A DNA stretch of 56,235 nt, taken from NCBI RefSeq assembly GCF_010692325.1, contig NZ_JAAHHW010000039.1:1-56235 (forward strand). The letters are read 5' to 3'. Both the position numbers and the translations under genes were made by a program. Positions 6,172-56,235 of this stretch are shown here, one piece after another. Below the pieces are notes generated by a model. That model did no database searches and was not told where the DNA came from. It saw only the letters and a program-made list of their open reading frames with translations. The stretch is from Moorena sp. SIO3I8 (GTDB lineage: Bacteria > Cyanobacteriota > Cyanobacteriia > Cyanobacteriales > Coleofasciculaceae). Within the stretch, counting starts at the first letter, position 1. Each line of letters opens with the position of its first letter.

Positions 6172-8658
6172 TTAAGTCATAATTGTCCCATCCATTAACC
6201 ACTGATACCGATACTCTAACTCGACTTTCATTAAAGGGTAATTCTCCAATATTTCATCCTGAAGAATAATCTTTTCTGCTGCATCCCTCGCCAAATTTAA
6301 TACCTCTTGGTCTTCTACCAAACTAGCTAGAGCAAAATCTGCTAACCCGGATTGGCGCTTACCTAAAACTTCCCCAGGACCACGAAAACGCATATCCATT
6401 TCAGAGATAAAAAAGCCATCCTGGGACTGTTCTAATACCCCCAAACGTTGTCTAGCTGTTTCAGTATTAGAACCACTTACTAAAAGACAATAAGATTTGT
6501 CAGAACCTCGACCCACACGACCCCGTAATTGGTGTAACTGAGATAACCCAAACCGTTCTGCATTTTCAATCATCATTACGGTAGCATTTGGTACATCTAC
6601 ACCCACTTCAATAACAGTAGTTGAAACAATAATTTGGCTTTTGTTATCCCGAAAGGCACTAAGTGATTTATCTTTCTCAGCTGAATTCATCCGACCATGA
6701 AGTAACCCAACCTTAAATTCTGGAAATATACTTTCAGACAGTCGTTTATGCTCTTCAATTACTGACCGCAAATCTAATTTGTTCGATTCCTCAATCAAGG
6801 GCAATACCATATAGGCTTGCCGTCCTTGAGCCACTTCTCGACGAATCAGGTCATAGGCATGTTTCCTCTCTTTTCCCTTTAGTACAGTAGTCTGAATCTT
6901 CTGACGACCAGGGGGCAATTCATCAATCTGACTCACATCCAAATCCCCGTGGAGGGTTAGCGCTAGGGTTCTGGGAATTGGCGTAGCGGTCAGAGTCAGC
7001 ACATGGGGAGATTGGCCTTTTTGCTGTAAACGAGCCCGTTGCTTGACCCCAAATCGATGCTGTTCATCGATTACTACTAAACCCAAACTGTGGAAGTTCA
7101 CTGGGTCTTGAATCAAAGCATGAGTTCCTACCAACAAAGGAAGTTCTCCTGTTTCTAGCTGGGAATGAATTTTTCTACGCTTAGAAACTTTAGTAGAACC
7201 TGTTAGTAATTCAACCGGAAGGTGTAGTAAATTAAACCAATTTACTAACTTACGATAGTGCTGTTCAGCTAATACTTCAGTGGGAGCCATCAGAGCAGCT
7301 TGGTACCCCGATTGGATGGCGGCTAGAATAGCATAAACTGCCACAATAGTTTTACCGGAACCGACATCTCCCTGAACCAATCGATTCATGGGTGTCTCGG
7401 ATTCCATATCCTTGAGAATTTCATTGATGACTCTTGTCTGAGCCCCGGTTAATTCAAAAGGAAGCAGTTGATGAAATTGGTCAAAGAGTTTACCAATCGG
7501 AGCCATGACCGCACTGCTTTGGGTTTTACGCTGAGCTTGGCGGCGCTGGAGAAATCCGAGCTGTAAGTAGAAAAATTCATCAAAGACTAAGCGCCTTCTG
7601 GCATCAGCAAGGGTGTCTGCATCTTGGGGAAAATGAATGTTTGCGATCGCATCAGAAACCCCCATCAACCCATATTCTTTACGAAAGGTTACTGGCAAGG
7701 GTTCCTTAATCAAAGAAGTGTAGGGAAGTGCAGCAATTATCGCCCGCCTCACCAAGTCGGCTGGTACCCCTTCGGTTAGGGAATAAACCGGTACAACTCG
7801 ACCTATTTTCATCGAGTCAATGCTACCCCCTGGATGCTCTAATACTTCCAGTTCCGGGTCTTCTAGAGTAATCCCATATTTATTTTTCTTTACCAAACCC
7901 GAAGCAGCTACCACTGCTCCCACTGGATACCGCCGCTTTTGTTGATACTGCCAGTTACGATTACTGTAACGAAAGCCAGCAAAAAAACGACTGAGCTTAA
8001 TTTCACCAGTAGAGTCTTTTAAGACTATATCTAAAATAGTTAATTTTTTATTACGAGGGCTACTGAAACAGTTACAGCGCTTCACTGTACCCATGATAGT
8101 AACTGTTTCACCAGGTACTAAGTCAGCCATATTGACCTGACGGGCATAGTTAACATGATCACGGGGGTAGTAATATAGCAAGTCACGCACTTTGTGCAGA
8201 CCCAGACGTGCTAAATACTCACTGTTTTTACTACCCACCGCTGCCAACTTAGCCAGTGGTAGGTCAAGGTTTTTTTTACTACCAAGCTCTGAGGATGCCT
8301 GTTGTTTCTCCACCAAGGGCTTGGTTTTAGGCACTCTGACCATAGGATGTTCTGTTTGAGATTTATCTTTAGCTAAACGGCGTTGAGTGTCCTGCTGGAG
8401 GTCGTTGAGAAAGCGGCGAGTATCAGCTACCAGATGTTGCCTTTGCTGTAGCGTCATCTGAGCATAACGGGCAAACTGATTGCCGATTTCCTGCCAACGC
8501 CGTTTCTCAGTTGATGTGAGGACATTAGGAGTCTTACTAAAACTGAGGCAGAGGAATTCACTAAAGCGGTATTGATTCCCTTCCAAATCAGTAAAGCCAA
8601 CTCTTGCTTCTACCGACAGGGCTTTTTGCAATCGCACCCAATCTGGTAATTCGGTCAT
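6172..8658 (-). CDS. recG: ATP-dependent DNA helicase RecG
   Basis: An 828-residue superfamily 2 helicase that reverses stalled forks and processes branched DNA. The N-terminal third is a cyanobacterial extension followed by the wedge/OB domain (LYYYPRDHVNYARQ, then ETVTIMGTVKRC). Walker A is GDVGSGKT near 428-435, the DExH box is VVIDEQHRFGVKQR near 525, and TATPIPRTLAL and the motif VI region QLRGRVGRG follow. Length is in the upper range for the family because of the N-terminal extension. The start codon lies inside a run of heptamer repeats (8654-8694). The next gene upstream on the same strand begins about 45 bp away. Identification is secure. Confidence 0.97.
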   Translation of the reverse strand: MTELPDWVRLQKALSVEARVGFTDLEGNQYRFSEFLCLSFSKTPNVLTSTEKRRWQEIGNQFARYAQMTLQQRQHLVADTRRFLNDLQQDTQRRLAKDKSQTEHPMVRVPKTKPLVEKQQASSELGSKKNLDLPLAKLAAVGSKNSEYLARLGLHKVRDLLYYYPRDHVNYARQVNMADLVPGETVTIMGTVKRCNCFSSPRNKKLTILDIVLKDSTGEIKLSRFFAGFRYSNRNWQYQQKRRYPVGAVVAASGLVKKNKYGITLEDPELEVLEHPGGSIDSMKIGRVVPVYSLTEGVPADLVRRAIIAALPYTSLIKEPLPVTFRKEYGLMGVSDAIANIHFPQDADTLADARRRLVFDEFFYLQLGFLQRRQAQRKTQSSAVMAPIGKLFDQFHQLLPFELTGAQTRVINEILKDMESETPMNRLVQGDVGSGKTIVAVYAILAAIQSGYQAALMAPTEVLAEQHYRKLVNWFNLLHLPVELLTGSTKVSKRRKIHSQLETGELPLLVGTHALIQDPVNFHSLGLVVIDEQHRFGVKQRARLQQKGQSPHVLTLTATPIPRTLALTLHGDLDVSQIDELPPGRQKIQTTVLKGKERKHAYDLIRREVAQGRQAYMVLPLIEESNKLDLRSVIEEHKRLSESIFPEFKVGLLHGRMNSAEKDKSLSAFRDNKSQIIVSTTVIEVGVDVPNATVMMIENAERFGLSQLHQLRGRVGRGSDKSYCLLVSGSNTETARQRLGVLEQSQDGFFISEMDMRFRGPGEVLGKRQSGLADFALASLVEDQEVLNLARDAAEKIILQDEILENYPLMKVELEYRYQWLMDGTIMT

Positions 8659-8694
8659 TGGTCATTGGTCATTAGTCATTAGTCATTGATCATT
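8654..8694 (+). repeat. Heptamer repeat (tcattag/tcattgg)n over recG start
   Basis: About six 7-bp units occupy the whole spacer between recG and the upstream gene. On the minus strand they read as repeated aATGAC, so the recG initiation region is made of repeats and offers several out-of-frame ATGs. A similar run is at 36856-36890. Confidence 0.85.
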
Positions 8695-8702
8695 ACCTCA
8701 GT

Positions 8703-9596
8703 TTAATCATCAAACCAGCTGGCACGCCATGCTGCTTCGGCTTGAGCAACTGCCTTTTGCCGCTGTTTTTTGTAATACTCTCGCTTCAGTTGACTCATTT
8801 TAGCTAATAGATCTCTAATTTTATTACGTCCAGGGGTCAAGTTGGGCTCAGCAAACTCTATCTCAGATAAGCGCAGCTTAATGGCAATAATACGGGTTAA
8901 TCTGGATTCATCGGTTTCCCGATCACCTTTAGTTTCCATCATTATTTTGATAATATTAGGAGATTCAGCCGTTTCGACCGCAGATGCTTCGACTTTTACC
9001 GCTGCTTCTAGGATTTCTTGGGGGAATTTGTCTGGTATAATAGAGCATTTATGCAATAGCCGATTAGCTTCCACAGAGACATCTTGAATGGTTTTGGTGA
9101 TCCCACTGTCTAGGTGCTTGAGCCATTGCTCCAGTTTTTCTATGCTATTTCGTGGGTTACTCGTTAACTCAGCTGCTGGTGATGGCTCGGTTGGAGCTTT
9201 AAACCATGAAGAGTCTTCTGTAGATGAAGACATTTCAGAATTTTCAGAGTCATGACTTGGATCATGACTCTGATCATGATCCAAGTCATGATTAGAGTCA
9301 TCAGTAGTAGCTGACCTTGACTCTTGCCACTGTTCGAGGAGTGATGGCAACTGTTGTTGAGTCTCTTGAGCCAGCTTTCGTAGGGATTGCTGTAACTGTT
9401 GCTTACTGTTAACCGACAAATTTAGAAAAGACTCAGGATACCCTTGAGTGCAAATCCGATAGGCAGCCATAATCAGCTGCTGCCCCACGCATTGACCTAA
9501 AAAGGTCAAATAGTTAGAGTAGGTTGTTTGGAATTCCTGTGCCAAATGGATGATGGCTTCCTCTAAGGTTGCCAATTCCTGGTCAATTCGATTCAC
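8703..9596 (-). CDS. Hypothetical helical protein with HD-rich repeat
   Basis: A 297-residue, highly charged protein with no recognised catalytic motif. Residues 1-95 are Gln-rich and helical, probably coiled coil. Residues about 98-118 are a low-complexity DSNHDLDHDQSHDPSHDS segment encoded by a tandem tcatgact-type repeat near 9250-9300. The C-terminal third is helical and Lys/Arg-rich (KMSQLKREYYKKQRQKAVAQ). It lies upstream of recG on the same strand with a 45-bp spacer, so co-transcription is possible. I do not recognise the family; the length and clean stop support a real gene. No signal peptide or membrane segment is seen. Confidence 0.65.
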   Translation of the reverse strand: MNRIDQELATLEEAIIHLAQEFQTTYSNYLTFLGQCVGQQLIMAAYRICTQGYPESFLNLSVNSKQQLQQSLRKLAQETQQQLPSLLEQWQESRSATTDDSNHDLDHDQSHDPSHDSENSEMSSSTEDSSWFKAPTEPSPAAELTSNPRNSIEKLEQWLKHLDSGITKTIQDVSVEANRLLHKCSIIPDKFPQEILEAAVKVEASAVETAESPNIIKIMMETKGDRETDESRLTRIIAIKLRLSEIEFAEPNLTPGRNKIRDLLAKMSQLKREYYKKQRQKAVAQAEAAWRASWFDD

Positions 9597-9879
9597 TGCT
9601 GTTATCTATACAATTCCATAGTTAATCCGTTGAGCATATCAAATACATGCCTAGTCTACAGTATGCCCATTCTTATAGTTTTACCATGATCGGCTTATAC
9701 CCGTGAGATTGTCCAATTCTCCACACCCAACTCCACACCCAATGAGATCCCCGACTAGACATGGCATCTACCTAATTTTGAATACGCTCATTTTTTGTGA
9801 AAAACAGTATCTATTGATACAGAATCATAACAGAAAAAGATATTATATCAAAACACCTCAAATACAAAGCTATCAACTA

Positions 9880-10135
9880 GTCAATAACCCCACCTAATCC
9901 GAAAGGATGTAAGTGGGCTAAGAAAGCGGTAACACTTTCTTAGGGTTGACTAGACCACAAGCGCGTTTAGCTGGTAAGCACTTCCGTTATACTTCCCCAG
10001 TTCGGATTATCGGAAAACTTTCGTGAGCATTAGTGTGTGGTAGTTGGGACATCTTGCTAAACTTGGGTCTTGGGGACTAATCACTTTTACACGAGAGGTT
10101 GATAACCATGTATCGTGTAACAGTTTTATCGAAAT
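9880..10135 (+). repeat. Conserved leader element, copy A (second copy at 25043)
   Basis: Long blocks match 25043-25399: the start gtcaatnaccccacctaa, then tttagctggtaagcacttcc, gattatcgga, gtggtagttgggacatcttg, and the end acacgagaggttgat-accatgtatcgtgta. It carries a ribosome-binding GAGAGG and ends in a short ORF beginning MYRVTVLSK. Copy B has about 110 bp of extra repeat DNA inside and ends in the analogous MYRVPVLSK ORF. It could be a 5' leader with a regulatory peptide or the head of a duplicated gene. I do not recognise it as a known riboswitch. The DNA from 9597 to 9880 shows nothing else. Confidence 0.65.
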
Positions 10136-10302
10136 TGCTTGGTCAATTTTCTACCAAGAAAACACAGTTACTCGAACCTAGAACTGGATTAATTTGTAAA
10201 CCGTTAGTTGGAGGTGCAGCATCTCACAGGGGGCTGAGTGCGACAAAGTGGCGTTCGCACTTTGACAGGACTTACGCGGTGAAGTTTATTTCGCCCCCCT
10301 AG
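10108..10302 (+). CDS. Short ORF at end of leader copy A
   Basis: It begins MYRVTVLSKLLGQFSTKK with GAGAGG about 8 bp upstream. Only the first ~9 residues are shared with the second leader copy, where the ORF reads MYRVPVLSKSDEQ. The C-terminal residues come from an inserted R2 repeat starting at 10266, so the original end has been replaced. It could be a regulatory leader peptide or a gene remnant. There is no homology that I recognise. Confidence 0.3.
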   Translation: MYRVTVLSKLLGQFSTKKTQLLEPRTGLICKPLVGGAASHRGLSATKWRSHFDRTYAVKFISPP

Positions 10303-21256: not shown

Positions 21257-21361
21257 TCCCTACTCCCTACTCCCTACTCCCTACTCCCTACTCCCTACTC
21301 CCTACTCCCTACTCCCTACTCCCTACTCCCTACTCCCTACTCCCTACTCCCTGCTCCCTGC
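21257..21361 (+). repeat. Longest heptamer minisatellite (ctcccta)n
   Basis: About 14-15 near-perfect 7-bp units lie between two minus-strand genes. Read in frames it gives artificial YSLLPTP repeats, which are not a gene. The most uniform array in the window, so probably recently expanded. Confidence 0.95.
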
Positions 21362-51945: not shown

Positions 51946-52884
51946 ATGACCACGCCCAAGCCCACACTTACCAGATCGGGAAGTGTTACATTATGTCACC
52001 AGAACAGAGTGGTAAAAAAATTGGACACAAGTAAAGACAGTTCCTTAAAACACAGCAAAATTCACCAAAGGCTAAGTCAATTGATTAAGGTACTGGCTCA
52101 AAAATTGGGTAGTGTCCGGGAACTTGCTAGGCAAGTCAATGTCACTAACAATACCTTGACAAATTGGATGAATTGTGATAATACTCCCAGCTTAGAGAAG
52201 CTAGAGAGGCTGGCTAAAGGTATTGGTTGGACAACGGAAGAGTTGATCAGCTTCTTGGTCAGTGAGGAAAACCCTCTCGAAGCCATTGAGCGAAACAAGA
52301 AATCGAGTTCCTCTACTTTGACACCACCTATTTCCATGGAGCAGATTTTGGCAGAGCTTCAGTGGCGACCAGTACAGCAATTAGTTGAGATTAATTTAGC
52401 GATCGCTAAACGGTTGCAAAGGGAATTCAGTGGTTCGACAGATACCACCGGCCTAGAGGAGGTGTTAAATCAGTCTCCTAAATTTGAGGAACTCAAGGGA
52501 GTGAAATTTATTTCACTGAGCTTAAAGGCCAGGCGACGATTAAAGAATTGGGTGACAATCTGCCAAAGTTATGTAGGCTTGAGTCCAGAGGAATTTATCC
52601 AAGTCGCTGTCGAGAAGCACAAAATTGACCCAGGAACCTTTGGGCTATTTTATAAGAGCATCATGGAACTCTCTAGTACTCCGTTTCCCCAGAGTTACTA
52701 TGAGTGGCTTTTCCCGTTAATTTCTCCAGTGAGTGGTTGGATCGGGTCAGCACAAGAAACTCCTATTCTAGATTTTTCGAGAACTTACACAGAAACTTAC
52801 ACAGAACCTTGGAGTCATTTTATTGAGAATTTAGAAGACAGTGGTAATGGAGTGACTAGCAAGTCTAGTTCAGTTCTGTGTTAA
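51946..52884 (+). CDS. XRE-family HTH protein with unknown C-terminal domain
   Basis: 312 residues. The N-terminal 35 are disordered. The HTH is at about 45-100: LIKVLAQKLGSVRELARQVNVTNNTLTNWMNC, then SLEKLERLAKGIGWTTEELI. Residues about 125-290 form an unrecognised helical domain (FEELKGVKFISLSLKARRRL; LSPEEFIQVAVEKHKIDPGT). It ends in TYTETYTEPW, from a short DNA duplication. It is divergent from the zinc-ribbon gene. It may be a transcription regulator of that gene or of accessory DNA. Confidence 0.75.
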   Translation: MTTPKPTLTRSGSVTLCHQNRVVKKLDTSKDSSLKHSKIHQRLSQLIKVLAQKLGSVRELARQVNVTNNTLTNWMNCDNTPSLEKLERLAKGIGWTTEELISFLVSEENPLEAIERNKKSSSSTLTPPISMEQILAELQWRPVQQLVEINLAIAKRLQREFSGSTDTTGLEEVLNQSPKFEELKGVKFISLSLKARRRLKNWVTICQSYVGLSPEEFIQVAVEKHKIDPGTFGLFYKSIMELSSTPFPQSYYEWLFPLISPVSGWIGSAQETPILDFSRTYTETYTEPWSHFIENLEDSGNGVTSKSSSVLC

Positions 52885-52965: not shown

Positions 52966-53953
52966 GGGTAGTGCATCACAGAAGTGTGGGAATGGTAAGA
53001 TGGCAGAGGTAAATAAAATACTTCAATGTTATGGAATGTCCTCTGTGTGGTCATCACAAGACTCATAAACACGGGAAAACTAGCAAGGGTTGTCAACGCT
53101 ATTACTGTCGAGTTTGTCGGCAGACTTTCACAGAAACCTTTGATACTATCTATTACCGATCGACTTGTGAACCCTGAACAAATCCGTGCAGTATTACAAG
53201 CGATCGCAGCAAGGTTGCAGTTTAAGAGGAGTTAGCCGTACTACGCATCTGGCATACAACACAGTGGTGAGTAATGTCCGAAAAGCTTCTCTATTTGGAC
53301 AAATGGTTCATAACGCTCTTGTGCAAAAGGTAGAAACAGAGCAGATAACTAGCGATGAGTTTTGGTCATTTGTGCAAAAAAACAATTTCACTGTCTCCGA
53401 GATCAGATGATAGTGGGAGATTGCTGGATTGGGATAAATCAAGATCTTGGAAACGGACTAATTCTTGCTGCTAGAGTGGGCAAGCATACTGACGAGTTGA
53501 TCTCTCAATTCCTAGTTAAAACAGAAGGCAAAACAGATTGTCAACAATGGCATACAGATGGTTGGGGTGGGTATGAGCGAGTTCTACCAACTGATGTCAA
53601 ACACATCTGACGGTAAAGACCAGACCCAAAAATTAGAGCGAACGTTCCGGAATTGTCCGCCAGCAGACTCGACGGTGGCATCGCCGACAGAACTTGCTTT
53701 GCCAAAGCCTGGAAGCAAACTGAGGCAACAGTAAGGTTAGTGGTCAGCTATTTCAATTGGATTTGGATTCATAGTCGTGCATCACAATACAGCAGCACAA
53801 AGAGCCGGATTAGCTATCGCTCCTTGGAGCTGGCATGATTTAATCACCTATTCCACACTTTGCTAACACCATTACTGCTATTGAGTAGTGCATCGTGCCA
53901 TTACCGTGACAATCACGATTTAGCTATCCCACACTTCTTTAATGCACCACCCC
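52966..53953 (+). mobile_element. Decayed IS1-family insertion sequence
   Basis: The ends are 25-bp imperfect inverted repeats: gggtagtgcatcacagaagt then gtggg (52966-52990) against cccacacttc then tttaatgcaccacccc (53928-53953), with about three mismatches. It encloses a frameshifted transposase. A second internal copy of part of the end (ttccacactttgctaaca near 53851) is also present. Total about 990 bp. No target duplication is evident. Confidence 0.75.
53031..53838 (+). pseudogene. IS1-family transposase, several frameshifts
   Basis: It starts MECPLCGHHKTHKHGKTSKG and continues QRYYCRVCRQTF, the InsA-type zinc-finger. The frame stops at 53162 or so, resumes in another frame as GCSLRGVSRTTHLAYNTVVS, breaks again near 53400, and goes on as IVGDCWIGINQDLGNGLILA with HTDGWGGYERVLP, the DDE-domain part. 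At least three frame changes, so it is inactive. The last part ends LVVSYFNWIWIHSRAS. The family call is good. Confidence 0.8.
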
Positions 53954-54025
53954 TGAATCCTTACCTTGGAGGTTGCAACAAAAAGTTACGAGGTAGTATT
54001 TCTGTTAAGATAGCACTGGGGGTCG

Positions 54026-54253: not shown

Positions 54254-54388
54254 GTCAAAACTGATGATTGCTTCAAAACCAAACACTAAAAAAAGTAATT
54301 TAAACATTATTTTGGGGTATCATTATGGATACTGGAATAGTAGCATTAACAACTTATAAAATTCCAATATATTTGGAGAAATAATTCT

Positions 54389-55278
54389 ATGAAAGTTGAG
54401 GTGGCACAAGATCTGTACCCTTCTAGGGGAGACAAGAGTGGATTTATTAAAAGAAAAGAGCAAATCATTTATGGTACTATTGAACAATTTAAAAAGGCTC
54501 AACTTGATAACAAAGAAGTTACTTTTTATAAAAAAAATGGGTACTTGATTATTGAAAAGATGTTATATTTTAATGAATTAAATAATTTAAAAAATGAAGC
54601 TAAAAAAATAAAAAAAAATCCTTATAAGAATCTGAAAATCCAGAAATTATTAGAGAGATAGACTCTAAAATCGTAAGGTCTGTATTTAATATTCATAAAA
54701 CTAATGAAATATTTAAAAAACTCTGTTACAGTCGGAAGATTTTAAATATTGCAGAAGCATTGCTAGGAAGCCCAACGTATATTCATCAATCAAGAATGAA
54801 TTGTAAAGATAGATTTGATGGTAAAGGGTTTTATTGGCATTCAGATTTTGAGACTTGGCATAGTGAAGATGGTATGCCTAACATGAGAGCTGTAAGCTGT
54901 TCTATTTTGCTTACTGATAATAATGAGTTTAATGGTCCATTACTACTAGTACCAGGCTCTCATAAATACTTTATTCAATGTCCGGGGAAAACTCCAGAAG
55001 CTCATTATAAACACTCTTTAAAGAAACAGGAATATGGCGTACCTACAAAAGACTCAATCACCAAAATAATCAAGAAACATGGTATAACTTCGTTTAAAGC
55101 CAAAGCAGGTTCGGTTATATTTTTTGATTGTAATATAATTCATGGTTCATCTGACAATTTATCACCATTTCCTAGATATAATCTTTTCTTTGTTTACAAT
55201 AGTATATACAATAAATTGATATCTCCCTATGCTGGCACAAAACCAAGACCAGAATTTATTGCATCAAGAGAGCATTAA
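54389..55278 (+). pseudogene. ectD: Ectoine hydroxylase (EctD), one frameshift
   Basis: A non-heme Fe(II)/2-oxoglutarate dioxygenase that makes 5-hydroxyectoine. The strict EctD signature FYWHSDFETWHSEDGMP is intact, with Fe ligands His/Asp, and the distal His in CNIIHGSSDN; also HQSRMNCK, LTDNNEFNGPLLLVPGSH and KKQEYGVP. The N-terminus MKVEVAQDLYPSRGDKSG and NGYLIIEKML fit. The frame breaks near 54628-54650: the first part ends KNLKIQKLLER, and the correct continuation is NPEIIREIDSKIVRSVF in the -1 frame. One extra A in the A4 run at 54635-54638 restores about 296 residues, the family length, so this is either one mutation or a sequencing error. GGAG lies ~10 bp upstream. The gene is AT-rich. 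Confidence 0.9.
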
Positions 55279-55328
55279 TTTATTATAGATAAATCAAATA
55301 GAATTTATCTATAAATTATCAAAAAGTC

Positions 55329-55476
55329 GTAAGCATTCAGCTCTCAGCTCTCAGCTCTCAGCTCTCAGCTCTCAGCTTTGAGCTTTTAAATAAAACAAGT
55401 AAGCATTCGTTTAATCTTTGTTACGTCAGCTGAATGCTGACGGCTGACGGCTGACGGCTGACGGCTGAATGCTTAC
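55329..55476. mobile_element. 148-bp MITE (R3 family) with 8-bp target duplication
   Basis: 13-bp perfect terminal inverted repeats (gtaagcattcagc at 55329, gctgaatgcttac ending 55476) are flanked by the direct repeat aaaaagtc at 55321-55328 and 55477-55484. The interior has ctctcag (left) and ctgacgg (right) 7-bp arrays. It lies between the convergent ectD and ectC. It is the most intact of the R3 copies. Confidence 0.8.
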
Positions 55477-55506
55477 AAAAAGTCTCTGTTGGAGTTGATT
55501 ATTTTA

Positions 55507-55905
55507 TTAGCTTGACTCACTATTTATTTCATAAAAACCTTCTTTATTATGTACCTCTTCTCCAGTCAAAGGAGGATTAAATACACATATCATACGCATG
55601 GTTTCTGTTGCTCTTAAATAATGTCTTTCGTGCTTGTTCAAAAAATACAAAGTACCATCTGAAATAGGATGTATTTCACCTGTTTCTATGTCTTCTATTT
55701 CTCCATTTCCAGCTACACAATAAACAGCTTCGATATGATATTTATACCAAATATAAGTTTCTGTTCCAGCATGAATTAAAGTATCATGTAGAGAAAAGCC
55801 AACTTGGTCATCTTTTAATAAAAAACGACGACTTGTCCAGTTGCCATTTGGTGCTTTAACTTCCCGCTTTGTTCCAATAATTTCTTTTAAGCGACGTACA
55901 ATCAT
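55507..55905 (-). CDS. ectC: L-ectoine synthase (EctC)
   Basis: 132-residue cupin that cyclises N-gamma-acetyl-diaminobutyrate to ectoine, a compatible solute. It begins MIVRRLKEIIGTKREVKAPN. Hallmarks: WTSRRFLLKDDQVGFSLHDT, the cupin core ETYIWYKYHIEAVYCVAGNG (likely iron ligand Glu59), GTLYFLNKHERHYLRA (Tyr87, His95), and CVFNPPLTGEEVHNKEGFY. The family length is about 128-137, so complete. ectD is convergent with it. ectA and ectB, normally upstream of ectC, are not in the window: a transposase follows at 55968. Function here therefore depends on genes elsewhere. Confidence 0.95.
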   Translation of the reverse strand: MIVRRLKEIIGTKREVKAPNGNWTSRRFLLKDDQVGFSLHDTLIHAGTETYIWYKYHIEAVYCVAGNGEIEDIETGEIHPISDGTLYFLNKHERHYLRATETMRMICVFNPPLTGEEVHNKEGFYEINSESS

Positions 55906-55967
55906 ATAGTATTTCTTATTTACATATACTAATTACTACATATTGTATCCCACATTCCGCAGGTTTG

Positions 55968-56235
55968 TTACACCAGTAGATAATATTTTTGGCAGGGAGC
56001 ACCAAGAAACTGAAGAATCCTGTGATGCTCATGAGTTAAGTTGACAATTTGCTCGACTCCGCCTAGGATAACTAAATGAATCGACTGAAAGCACTGAAAT
56101 ACCCACCGCATTGTCGGGGTAGCCGTCGGCTTACCCAATTGGTTGTTAATAGTTTGCTTAGTCCGGGCGAGAGCTTGGCGTAAGGCTCTTTGGGCGAGAG
56201 TGTAAACCAATAAACAAAGACGGTCATCAAAGAGA
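55968..56235 (-). CDS. IS1634-type transposase, C-terminal part, cut by window edge
   Basis: The frame is open to the right edge: LFDDRLCLLVYTLAQRALR, then NQLGKPTATPTMRWVFQCFQ and ILQFLGAPCQKYYLLV then stop. This is the conserved end of large IS1634-family DDE transposases (LGKPTxxPTxRWxFQ). The N-terminal part is beyond the window. It lies 60 bp upstream of ectC on the same strand, so it separates ectC from any upstream ectA/ectB. Confidence 0.85.
   Translation of the reverse strand, partial: LFDDRLCLLVYTLAQRALRQALARTKQTINNQLGKPTATPTMRWVFQCFQSIHLVILGGVEQIVNLTHEHHRILQFLGAPCQKYYLLV

Follow-up and report, generated by a model that had tools for sequence, protein, structure and literature searches.

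The window analyzed here is the whole of contig C323 (56,235 bp) from the draft genome of Moorena sp. SIO3I8 (hereafter G000; 7,992,293 bases in 510 contigs), and two ectoine genes lie at its right-hand end. The ectoine hydroxylase gene ectD occupies 54389..55278 on the forward strand, and the ectoine synthase gene ectC occupies 55507..55905 on the reverse strand. The two converge, as a preliminary description of this DNA had said, and the contig stops 330 bp past ectC, inside a small IS1634 derivative. PsaA and PsaB are present in G000, which therefore represents an oxygenic cyanobacterium, as well as in its congeners G001, G002, and G003. In the known route to ectoine, diaminobutyrate is formed when EctB aminates aspartate semialdehyde; it is then acetylated by EctA and cyclized to ectoine by EctC, and EctD, an Fe(II)/2-oxoglutarate enzyme, hydroxylates ectoine to 5-hydroxyectoine.

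Genes and mobile elements at the contig end

As first described, ectC is a complete gene. Its intact reading frame of 132 aa scores 197 bits against NF009806 (cut-off 128) and 195 bits against PF06339 (cut-off 27, E 5.8e-58). The protein keeps W23, S25, R27, T42, Y54, E59, Y87, H95, and F109, residues whose roles follow the P. lautus enzyme as given in excerpts of PMC6344544; they were located in the window protein from motifs and their spacing, not from an alignment with the P. lautus protein. Among them, W23, R27, T42, Y54, E59, Y87, and H95 sit at columns that are invariant in 82/82 rows (all EctC rows outside a nine-row set of cyanobacterial solitary sequences), and the protein has the iron ligands (Glu, Tyr, and His) and the substrate residues (Trp, Arg, Thr, and Tyr) of an ectoine synthase. 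The position of P. lautus Asn-38, where by our own reading the window has H, is outside the columns conserved at >93% in the EctC set.

The hydroxylase gene had been recognized by its signature, and this part of the description stands: the 17-residue motif FYWHSDFETWHSEDGMP is found at 54829..54879 on the forward strand. It includes the HxD of the iron-binding HxD...H triad, whose third ligand is probably the His at invariant residue 252 of the G001 protein (signature and triad roles from excerpts of PMC3979721). What had gone unreported is that ectD is not a single open reading frame. By alignment with the intact G001 gene, one base is missing near 54620, and the pieces lie in different frames, one ORF running from 54389 to 54661 and the next from 54631 to 55278. 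The latter fragment covers profile positions 63-272 of 277 in TIGR02408 and reaches 311.5 bits, below the cut-off of 336.5 for an intact, full-length EctD. Taken together, the N- and C-terminal parts retain 53 of the 54 columns that are invariant among 35 homologues.

We consider this frameshift more likely to be a sequence error than true decay, because it sits within the densest cluster of differences between G000 and G001, where the changes are skewed in kind (see below). Eleven EctD residues differ between the window and G001, one of them beside the frameshift and one in the C-terminal part. The 35 homologues favor the G001 residue at 8 of these positions, most clearly at P25 (31 vs. 0), S60 (14 vs. 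0), and L74 (27 vs. 2). At the other 3 they favor the window residue, namely E56 (16 vs. 3), N62 (2 vs. 0), and I87 (5 vs. 2), and error therefore cannot explain all of the changes in ectD.

Between the two genes, 55322..55475 holds an inserted array of tandem heptamers whose ends are inverted; it is missing from G001, and a different heptamer array is found elsewhere in the window, at 21257-21346. To the left of ectD, a decayed IS1-like element (53000..53964, forward strand) occupies the place of about 4.2 kb of G001 sequence between ectD and a Cro/C1-type helix-turn-helix gene (51946..52884, forward strand), which is syntenic in G001, G002, and G003 and forms the island's right-hand flank. 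The element had been called IS1-type; the match that we obtained is a sub-threshold one, to the InsA zinc-ribbon profile PF03811 at 19.2 bits (cut-off 26.1), and three other pieces of it returned no family when tested by family profile.

On the far side of ectC, the 287 bp at 55949..56235 (reverse strand) are the 3' part of an internally deleted element of the IS1634 family, within which the contig stops. An IS1634-type transposase had been placed here; an end of that family does adjoin ectC, but it is the 3' end of the deleted element, not a transposase gene. One copy of a 6-bp target duplication (ATACAA on the reverse strand) is present at 55943..55948. Both copies can be seen in G001, where the mini-IS (601 bp, at 8127-8727 of the 19-kb stretch L021) begins 8 bp after the ectB stop codon, lies in the gap between ectB and ectC without breaking a gene, and has 17-bp perfect terminal inverted repeats with ATACAA on either side. 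Terminal repeats, duplication, and homology thus identify an IS1634 derivative in G001, of which the window shows a single end and a single copy of the duplication. Since what it carries is the right-hand 287 bp together with that copy, the same insertion appears to be common to both genomes. The mini-IS matches a full IS1634 copy on contig C466 of G000 at 81-83%; that copy encodes a full-length transposase (NF033559, 420.9 bits, cut-off 100), whereas the ect copy shares the ends of the family and, in G001, is internally deleted and encodes no full transposase. A second copy of the same 287 bp stands at the start of C466, which would explain a contig break driven by the repeat.

The congener's cluster and the missing ectA and ectB

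In G001 (9.9 Mb in 20 contigs), the ect locus is on a contig of 1,108,072 bp and reads ectA-ectB-mini-IS1634-ectC, with an intact convergent ectD. In coordinates of L021, ectA is at 6331-6831 (EctA 178 bits, cut-off 120.6), ectB at 6868-8118 (EctB 627.1 bits, cut-off 552.2), and ectC at 8771-9166 (EctC 198.6 bits, cut-off 128), each on the strand opposite to ectD, which lies at 9252-10142 on the reverse strand (EctD 343 bits, cut-off 336.5); all four proteins are above their NCBIfam cut-offs.

The canonical ectABC(D) cluster of Proteobacteria and Bacillota has the same genes in the same ectA-ectB-ectC order, and the EctC ligand residues are kept. In the canonical cluster, however, ectD follows ectC on the same strand, whereas here it converges with ectC. 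Other differences are the 601-bp mini-IS between ectB and ectC in G001, the host, which is an oxygenic cyanobacterium, and the lack of any aspartokinase or ask_ect gene recognized near the locus, among ORFs of at least 90 aa in L021 (by eye, with Pfam on part).

In the preliminary description, ectC had been taken as lacking an adjacent ectA and ectB, and as a nonstandard orphan that might serve in salvage. The missing neighbors probably reflect where C323 ends, and we have dropped the orphan or salvage reading as a first choice, because the contig stops there and the start of ectA lies at the end of another contig. When the G000 contigs were searched with DNA of the G001 locus, the 3' end of C466 (39804-40042) matched G001 at 97% up to 36 codons into ectA, where C466 terminates, and the end of C323 (55479-56235) matched the mini-IS and ectC side at 99%. 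For ectB, and for ectA from codon 37 onward, this search found no close match in the G000 assembly. The suggestion to look for ectA and ectB elsewhere in the genome has thus produced the 5' end of ectA, but ectB is represented only by paralogues that are 50-54% identical to G001 EctB. Adjacency of ectA, ectB, and ectC is seen in G001; G000 shows the start of ectA and ectC at contig ends only.

The substitutions that separate G000 from G001 on either side of this break are unusual in kind. In 54260-55905, 20 of 25 are A/C or G/T, as against 449 of 1541 in a control stretch (window 1-53000; Fisher p 2.7e-7) and 54 of 144 in the AT-rich blocks of that stretch (p 1.2e-4). The end of C466 has the same excess (17/18 and 12/19), a skew that resembles miscalled bases in thinly covered, AT-rich DNA flanking a gap. 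Moreover, the smallest among 20 G000 contigs checked is 1025 bp, so that short pieces may have been dropped from the assembly. A direct deletion junction would be expected to carry mini-IS bases, and the 3' end of C466 has none, which favors a gap. For these three reasons (an error-like spectrum on both sides, small contigs perhaps dropped, and no mini-IS on C466), it is most likely that ectB and most of ectA lie between C466 and C323, present and unassembled; a true deletion of ectAB is less likely.

Composition, phylogeny, and history of the site

The description of the region as AT-rich was borne out by measurement. GC is 31.0% in 54260-55950 and 43.3% in 1-54259, so that a core-like composition was not seen, and 54301-55900, as a slice of 1600 bp, holds rank 4 of 547 by GC. 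The ect genes are at 30-35% GC in both G000 and G001; the neighboring genes measured are at about 42-49%.

"Quick" trees without bootstrap were built from 91 EctC, 38 EctD, 78 EctB, and 69 EctABC rows. These rows comprise 80 loci kept of 114 matching EctC, together with loci from genome searches; sequences with <75% query coverage, <90 bits, or stops, duplicate loci, and EctB proteins of <350 aa were dropped. G001 EctB falls in a 19-row clade (99, starred) whose other rows are from Pseudomonadota, Thermodesulfobacteriota, Myxococcota, Campylobacterota, Spirochaetota, and Nitrospinota, with Spirochaetia and Nitrospinota MAGs as sister (85, unstarred), and an AU test rejects placing it in one clade with the EctB-like paralogues of the genome itself (p 2.6e-5). 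In the tree of 69 concatenated EctABC loci, the cluster likewise groups with a Spirochaetia MAG and a Nitrospinota MAG (98, starred).

Nesting of EctC and EctD inside a cyanobacterial clade, which had been proposed earlier as a refuting outcome, was not seen, but the result for EctC is not clean. The window EctC stands outside the branch formed by eight cyanobacterial solitary EctCs (100, starred; the ninth, L121, is placed elsewhere without resolution), but the AU test does not reject a single cyanobacterial EctC clade (p 0.23 and 0.25). Long branches meet in the EctD tree, which gives no sure placement and was left unused. The sister of the window EctC is found on L058, a gammaproteobacterial MAG contig (98, starred); as this differs from the Spirochaetia and Nitrospinota sisters of EctB and EctABC, we name no donor. 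L058 itself (4191 bp, Gammaproteobacteria MAG Co_bin.355) encodes the EctC closest to that of the window (79%). Its ectC directly follows a 668-aa unknown ORF, which in turn follows an ATP-grasp-like gene (by eye), and no ectA or ectB match was found on its 4.2 kb; it offers a different context for a cluster-like EctC.

Neither G002 nor G003 has an EctC match, and neither has an EctA over the cut-off (G003 gives one sub-threshold match). In G002, the two flanks of the G001 locus (L021 up to 5261 and from 12310 on) are only ~250 bp apart, and G001 therefore carries ~7 kb more, including the ect genes; in G003 the flanks are on separate contigs. G000 has kept the right flank, with the IS1-like element described above. 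Its left flank, with photolyase and Nudix genes, is on contig C46 and is followed there by a second copy of the sequence from immediately upstream of ectA, which C466 carries as well. This second copy tells us that the locus has been rearranged in G000, and a true break could lie concealed in the gap.

Between G000 and G001, ectC and ectD have diverged five- to tenfold less at synonymous positions than the flanking genes have. Counted over ectC and the C-terminal part of ectD (the N-terminal part, dS 0.024 over 77 codons, being left out), there are 2 synonymous changes in 345 codons, against 472 in 8224 codons of 17 flanking genes (p 8e-7), these being 19 ORFs of at least 100 aa hand-picked from 39, less two without a G001 match. 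Fourfold sites give 2/117 against 317/3694 (p 0.004). AT-richness fails to explain the difference, since the AT-rich control blocks differ more than the ect tract does, with 144 substitutions in 2025 aligned bases. The simplest reading is that the ect tract would have been transferred between the two lineages after their split.

Composition, the EctB and EctABC trees, absence from two congeners (the site being nearly empty in G002), and low synonymous divergence together support the horizontal gain and later rearrangement that had been suggested at the outset. We are reasonably confident, judging from the sequence, that an oxygenic cyanobacterium has here acquired an ectoine/hydroxyectoine island horizontally, with ectAB of G000 unassembled and the ectD frameshift likely an error. 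The G000 locus would then be one end of an island that runs ectA-ectB, 601-bp mini-IS1634, ectC, and convergent ectD. Its ectB and most of its ectA would fall in the gap between C466 and C323, its ectD would actually be intact with a frameshift introduced by sequencing, and EctB, EctA, EctC, and EctD, acting in turn with their predicted activities, would give the cell an osmolyte, in a presumed osmotic role, that is not expected in its phylum. We lean slightly toward a broader view: ectoine and 5-hydroxyectoine would be native products of members of the genus, encoded by an AT-rich island that came in from beyond the phylum and later passed from one of its species to another.

G000 might instead have truly lost ectAB, leaving a decaying remnant in which ectD is frameshifted, IS elements have been active, and ectC is a relic. 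The absence of ectB from the assembly, the 1-bp frameshift, the rearranged left flank, and the mostly nonsynonymous changes in the N-terminal part of ectD (dN 0.049 vs. dS 0.024 over 77 codons) would all fit such a loss, but it is hard to reconcile with an ectC that keeps its ligand residues and shows 0 synonymous changes and 3 nucleotide differences from G001 over 130 codons, or with a substitution spectrum unlike that of the rest of the window. Both contigs also appear simply to stop, C466 without mini-IS bases, and we regard loss as unlikely.

Nor do we find much to commend a solitary EctC that works on an imported precursor, or on one made by EctB-like paralogues and an unrelated acetyltransferase, with no ectAB at the locus. 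Three EctB-like genes of G000 (two on C179 and one on C90) do exceed the TIGR02407 cut-off, a GNAT-family gene lies two ORFs after the one on C90, and solitary ectC genes are on record (excerpts of PMC5924519). These paralogues, however, are the 50-54% relatives of G001 EctB noted above and adjoin a PLP decarboxylase gene (C90) or a D-glutamate-cyclase-like gene (C179), and the 5' end of ectA is present in G000, which makes the idea very improbable. Contamination from a heterotroph in a nonaxenic culture or bin could be suspected from the AT-richness, the foreign trees, and a G000 contamination estimate of 2.11%, but we rejected it on synteny in two assemblies and give it next to no credence: the ect genes lie with IscS-type and Cro-type genes in the window and with photolyase and Nudix genes on the 1.1-Mb contig of G001, and both flanks match an 8.26-Mb contig of G002.

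Ectoine genes elsewhere in Cyanobacteria and in the genome

Accounts of salt tolerance in Cyanobacteria center on sucrose, trehalose, glucosylglycerol, and betaine. PF06339 exceeds its cut-off in 7 of 117 relatives and in 4 of 386 genomes across the phylum, G000 being included in both counts, and a further 13 of the 386 give sub-threshold matches only. EctA is over its cut-off in 2 of 12 genomes tested (the ten with EctC over the cut-off, plus G002 and G003), namely G001 and G123; G000 gives the contig-end piece only. The seven other EctC-bearing genomes (G012, G055, G069, G077, G104, G164, and G170) look solitary, as none has an EctA over the cut-off.

These seven contribute eight of the nine solitary EctC sequences, and the ninth is L121, a CCP5 contig checked on its 8.9 kb only. 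All belong to the same PF06339 cupin family as the window protein and have Glu, Tyr, and His at the metal-ligand columns (9/9), but in 8 of 9 a Gly replaces the substrate-contacting Trp that the window protein keeps (role as in excerpts of PMC6344544), and eight form a branch of their own, apart from L121. The window EctC therefore differs from the solitary type, in that the 5' end of ectA is in its genome and its branch is separate, although the AU test would allow it to join.

The remaining EctA-bearing genome, G123, has on a 5.7-kb contig (L165, C245:1-5739) a PF00696 amino-acid-kinase gene, which we take to be aspartokinase-like, followed by ectA-ectB-ectC and a cupin-like ORF. It belongs to the same phylum; no PsaA or PsaB match was found in it, so that, as assembled, it is not an oxygenic cyanobacterium and was set aside. 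L165 may belong to a nonphotosynthetic relative that has ectoine genes, or the contig may be a stray one.

In the literature, EctC proteins from Cyanobacteria are described as scarcely represented, with two strains in solitary groups 2 and 3, and a relic is among the options given for solitary ectC genes (excerpts of PMC5924519). Ectoine biosynthesis is given as absent from the Cyanobacteria surveyed among phototrophs, for which the table rows show five cyanobacteria (excerpts of PMC7824335). Waterburya agarophytonicola is, like G000, a cyanobacterium with an ectoine synthase: excerpts of PMC8580901 report an L-ectoine synthase gene and one "ectoine" secondary-metabolite cluster, and make no mention of ectA, ectB, or ectD. 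Heterologous ectABC improves the salt tolerance of Synechococcus elongatus, and the pathway can therefore operate in a cyanobacterial cell; the same source cites native ectoine in some microalgae (excerpts of PMC9932913). Excerpts of PMC10831059 and PMC12842852 added nothing decisive. Among the matches listed, by title and the start of the abstract, no paper dealt with an ectABC cluster native to Cyanobacteria, and one, PMC8580901, had an L-ectoine synthase gene.

We describe a known, ordinary pathway in a new and unusual host lineage, viewed across an assembly break, with genes that look foreign and are complete in one congener, G001, and presumably in G000. A photosynthetic genus with complete ectABC and ectD would offer a commercial osmolyte from a native phototroph, and would also be a test case for an osmolyte strategy gained by transfer. 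It is important to remember that contig ends in AT-rich DNA can yield solitary ectC calls.

Some other genes of G000 deserve a brief mention. At C179:67000-76430 (L022), two EctB-like aminotransferase genes, both over the TIGR02407 cut-off, flank the D-glutamate-cyclase-like gene (PF14336); a methyltransferase and an ABC-transporter ATPase are encoded nearby, and the whole makes up an uncharacterized diaminobutyrate-type cluster. At C90:41000-53000 (L023), the EctB-like aminotransferase gene is followed by the PLP decarboxylase (PF00282) and GNAT-family (PF00583) genes, an arrangement that we take to resemble a diaminobutyrate-to-diaminopropane module. A dioxygenase-like protein without the EctD signature, encoded at C57:71721-72374 (L003), is 41% identical to the EctD fragment, and its neighbor is presumably, by eye, an ornithine-cyclodeaminase-like gene.
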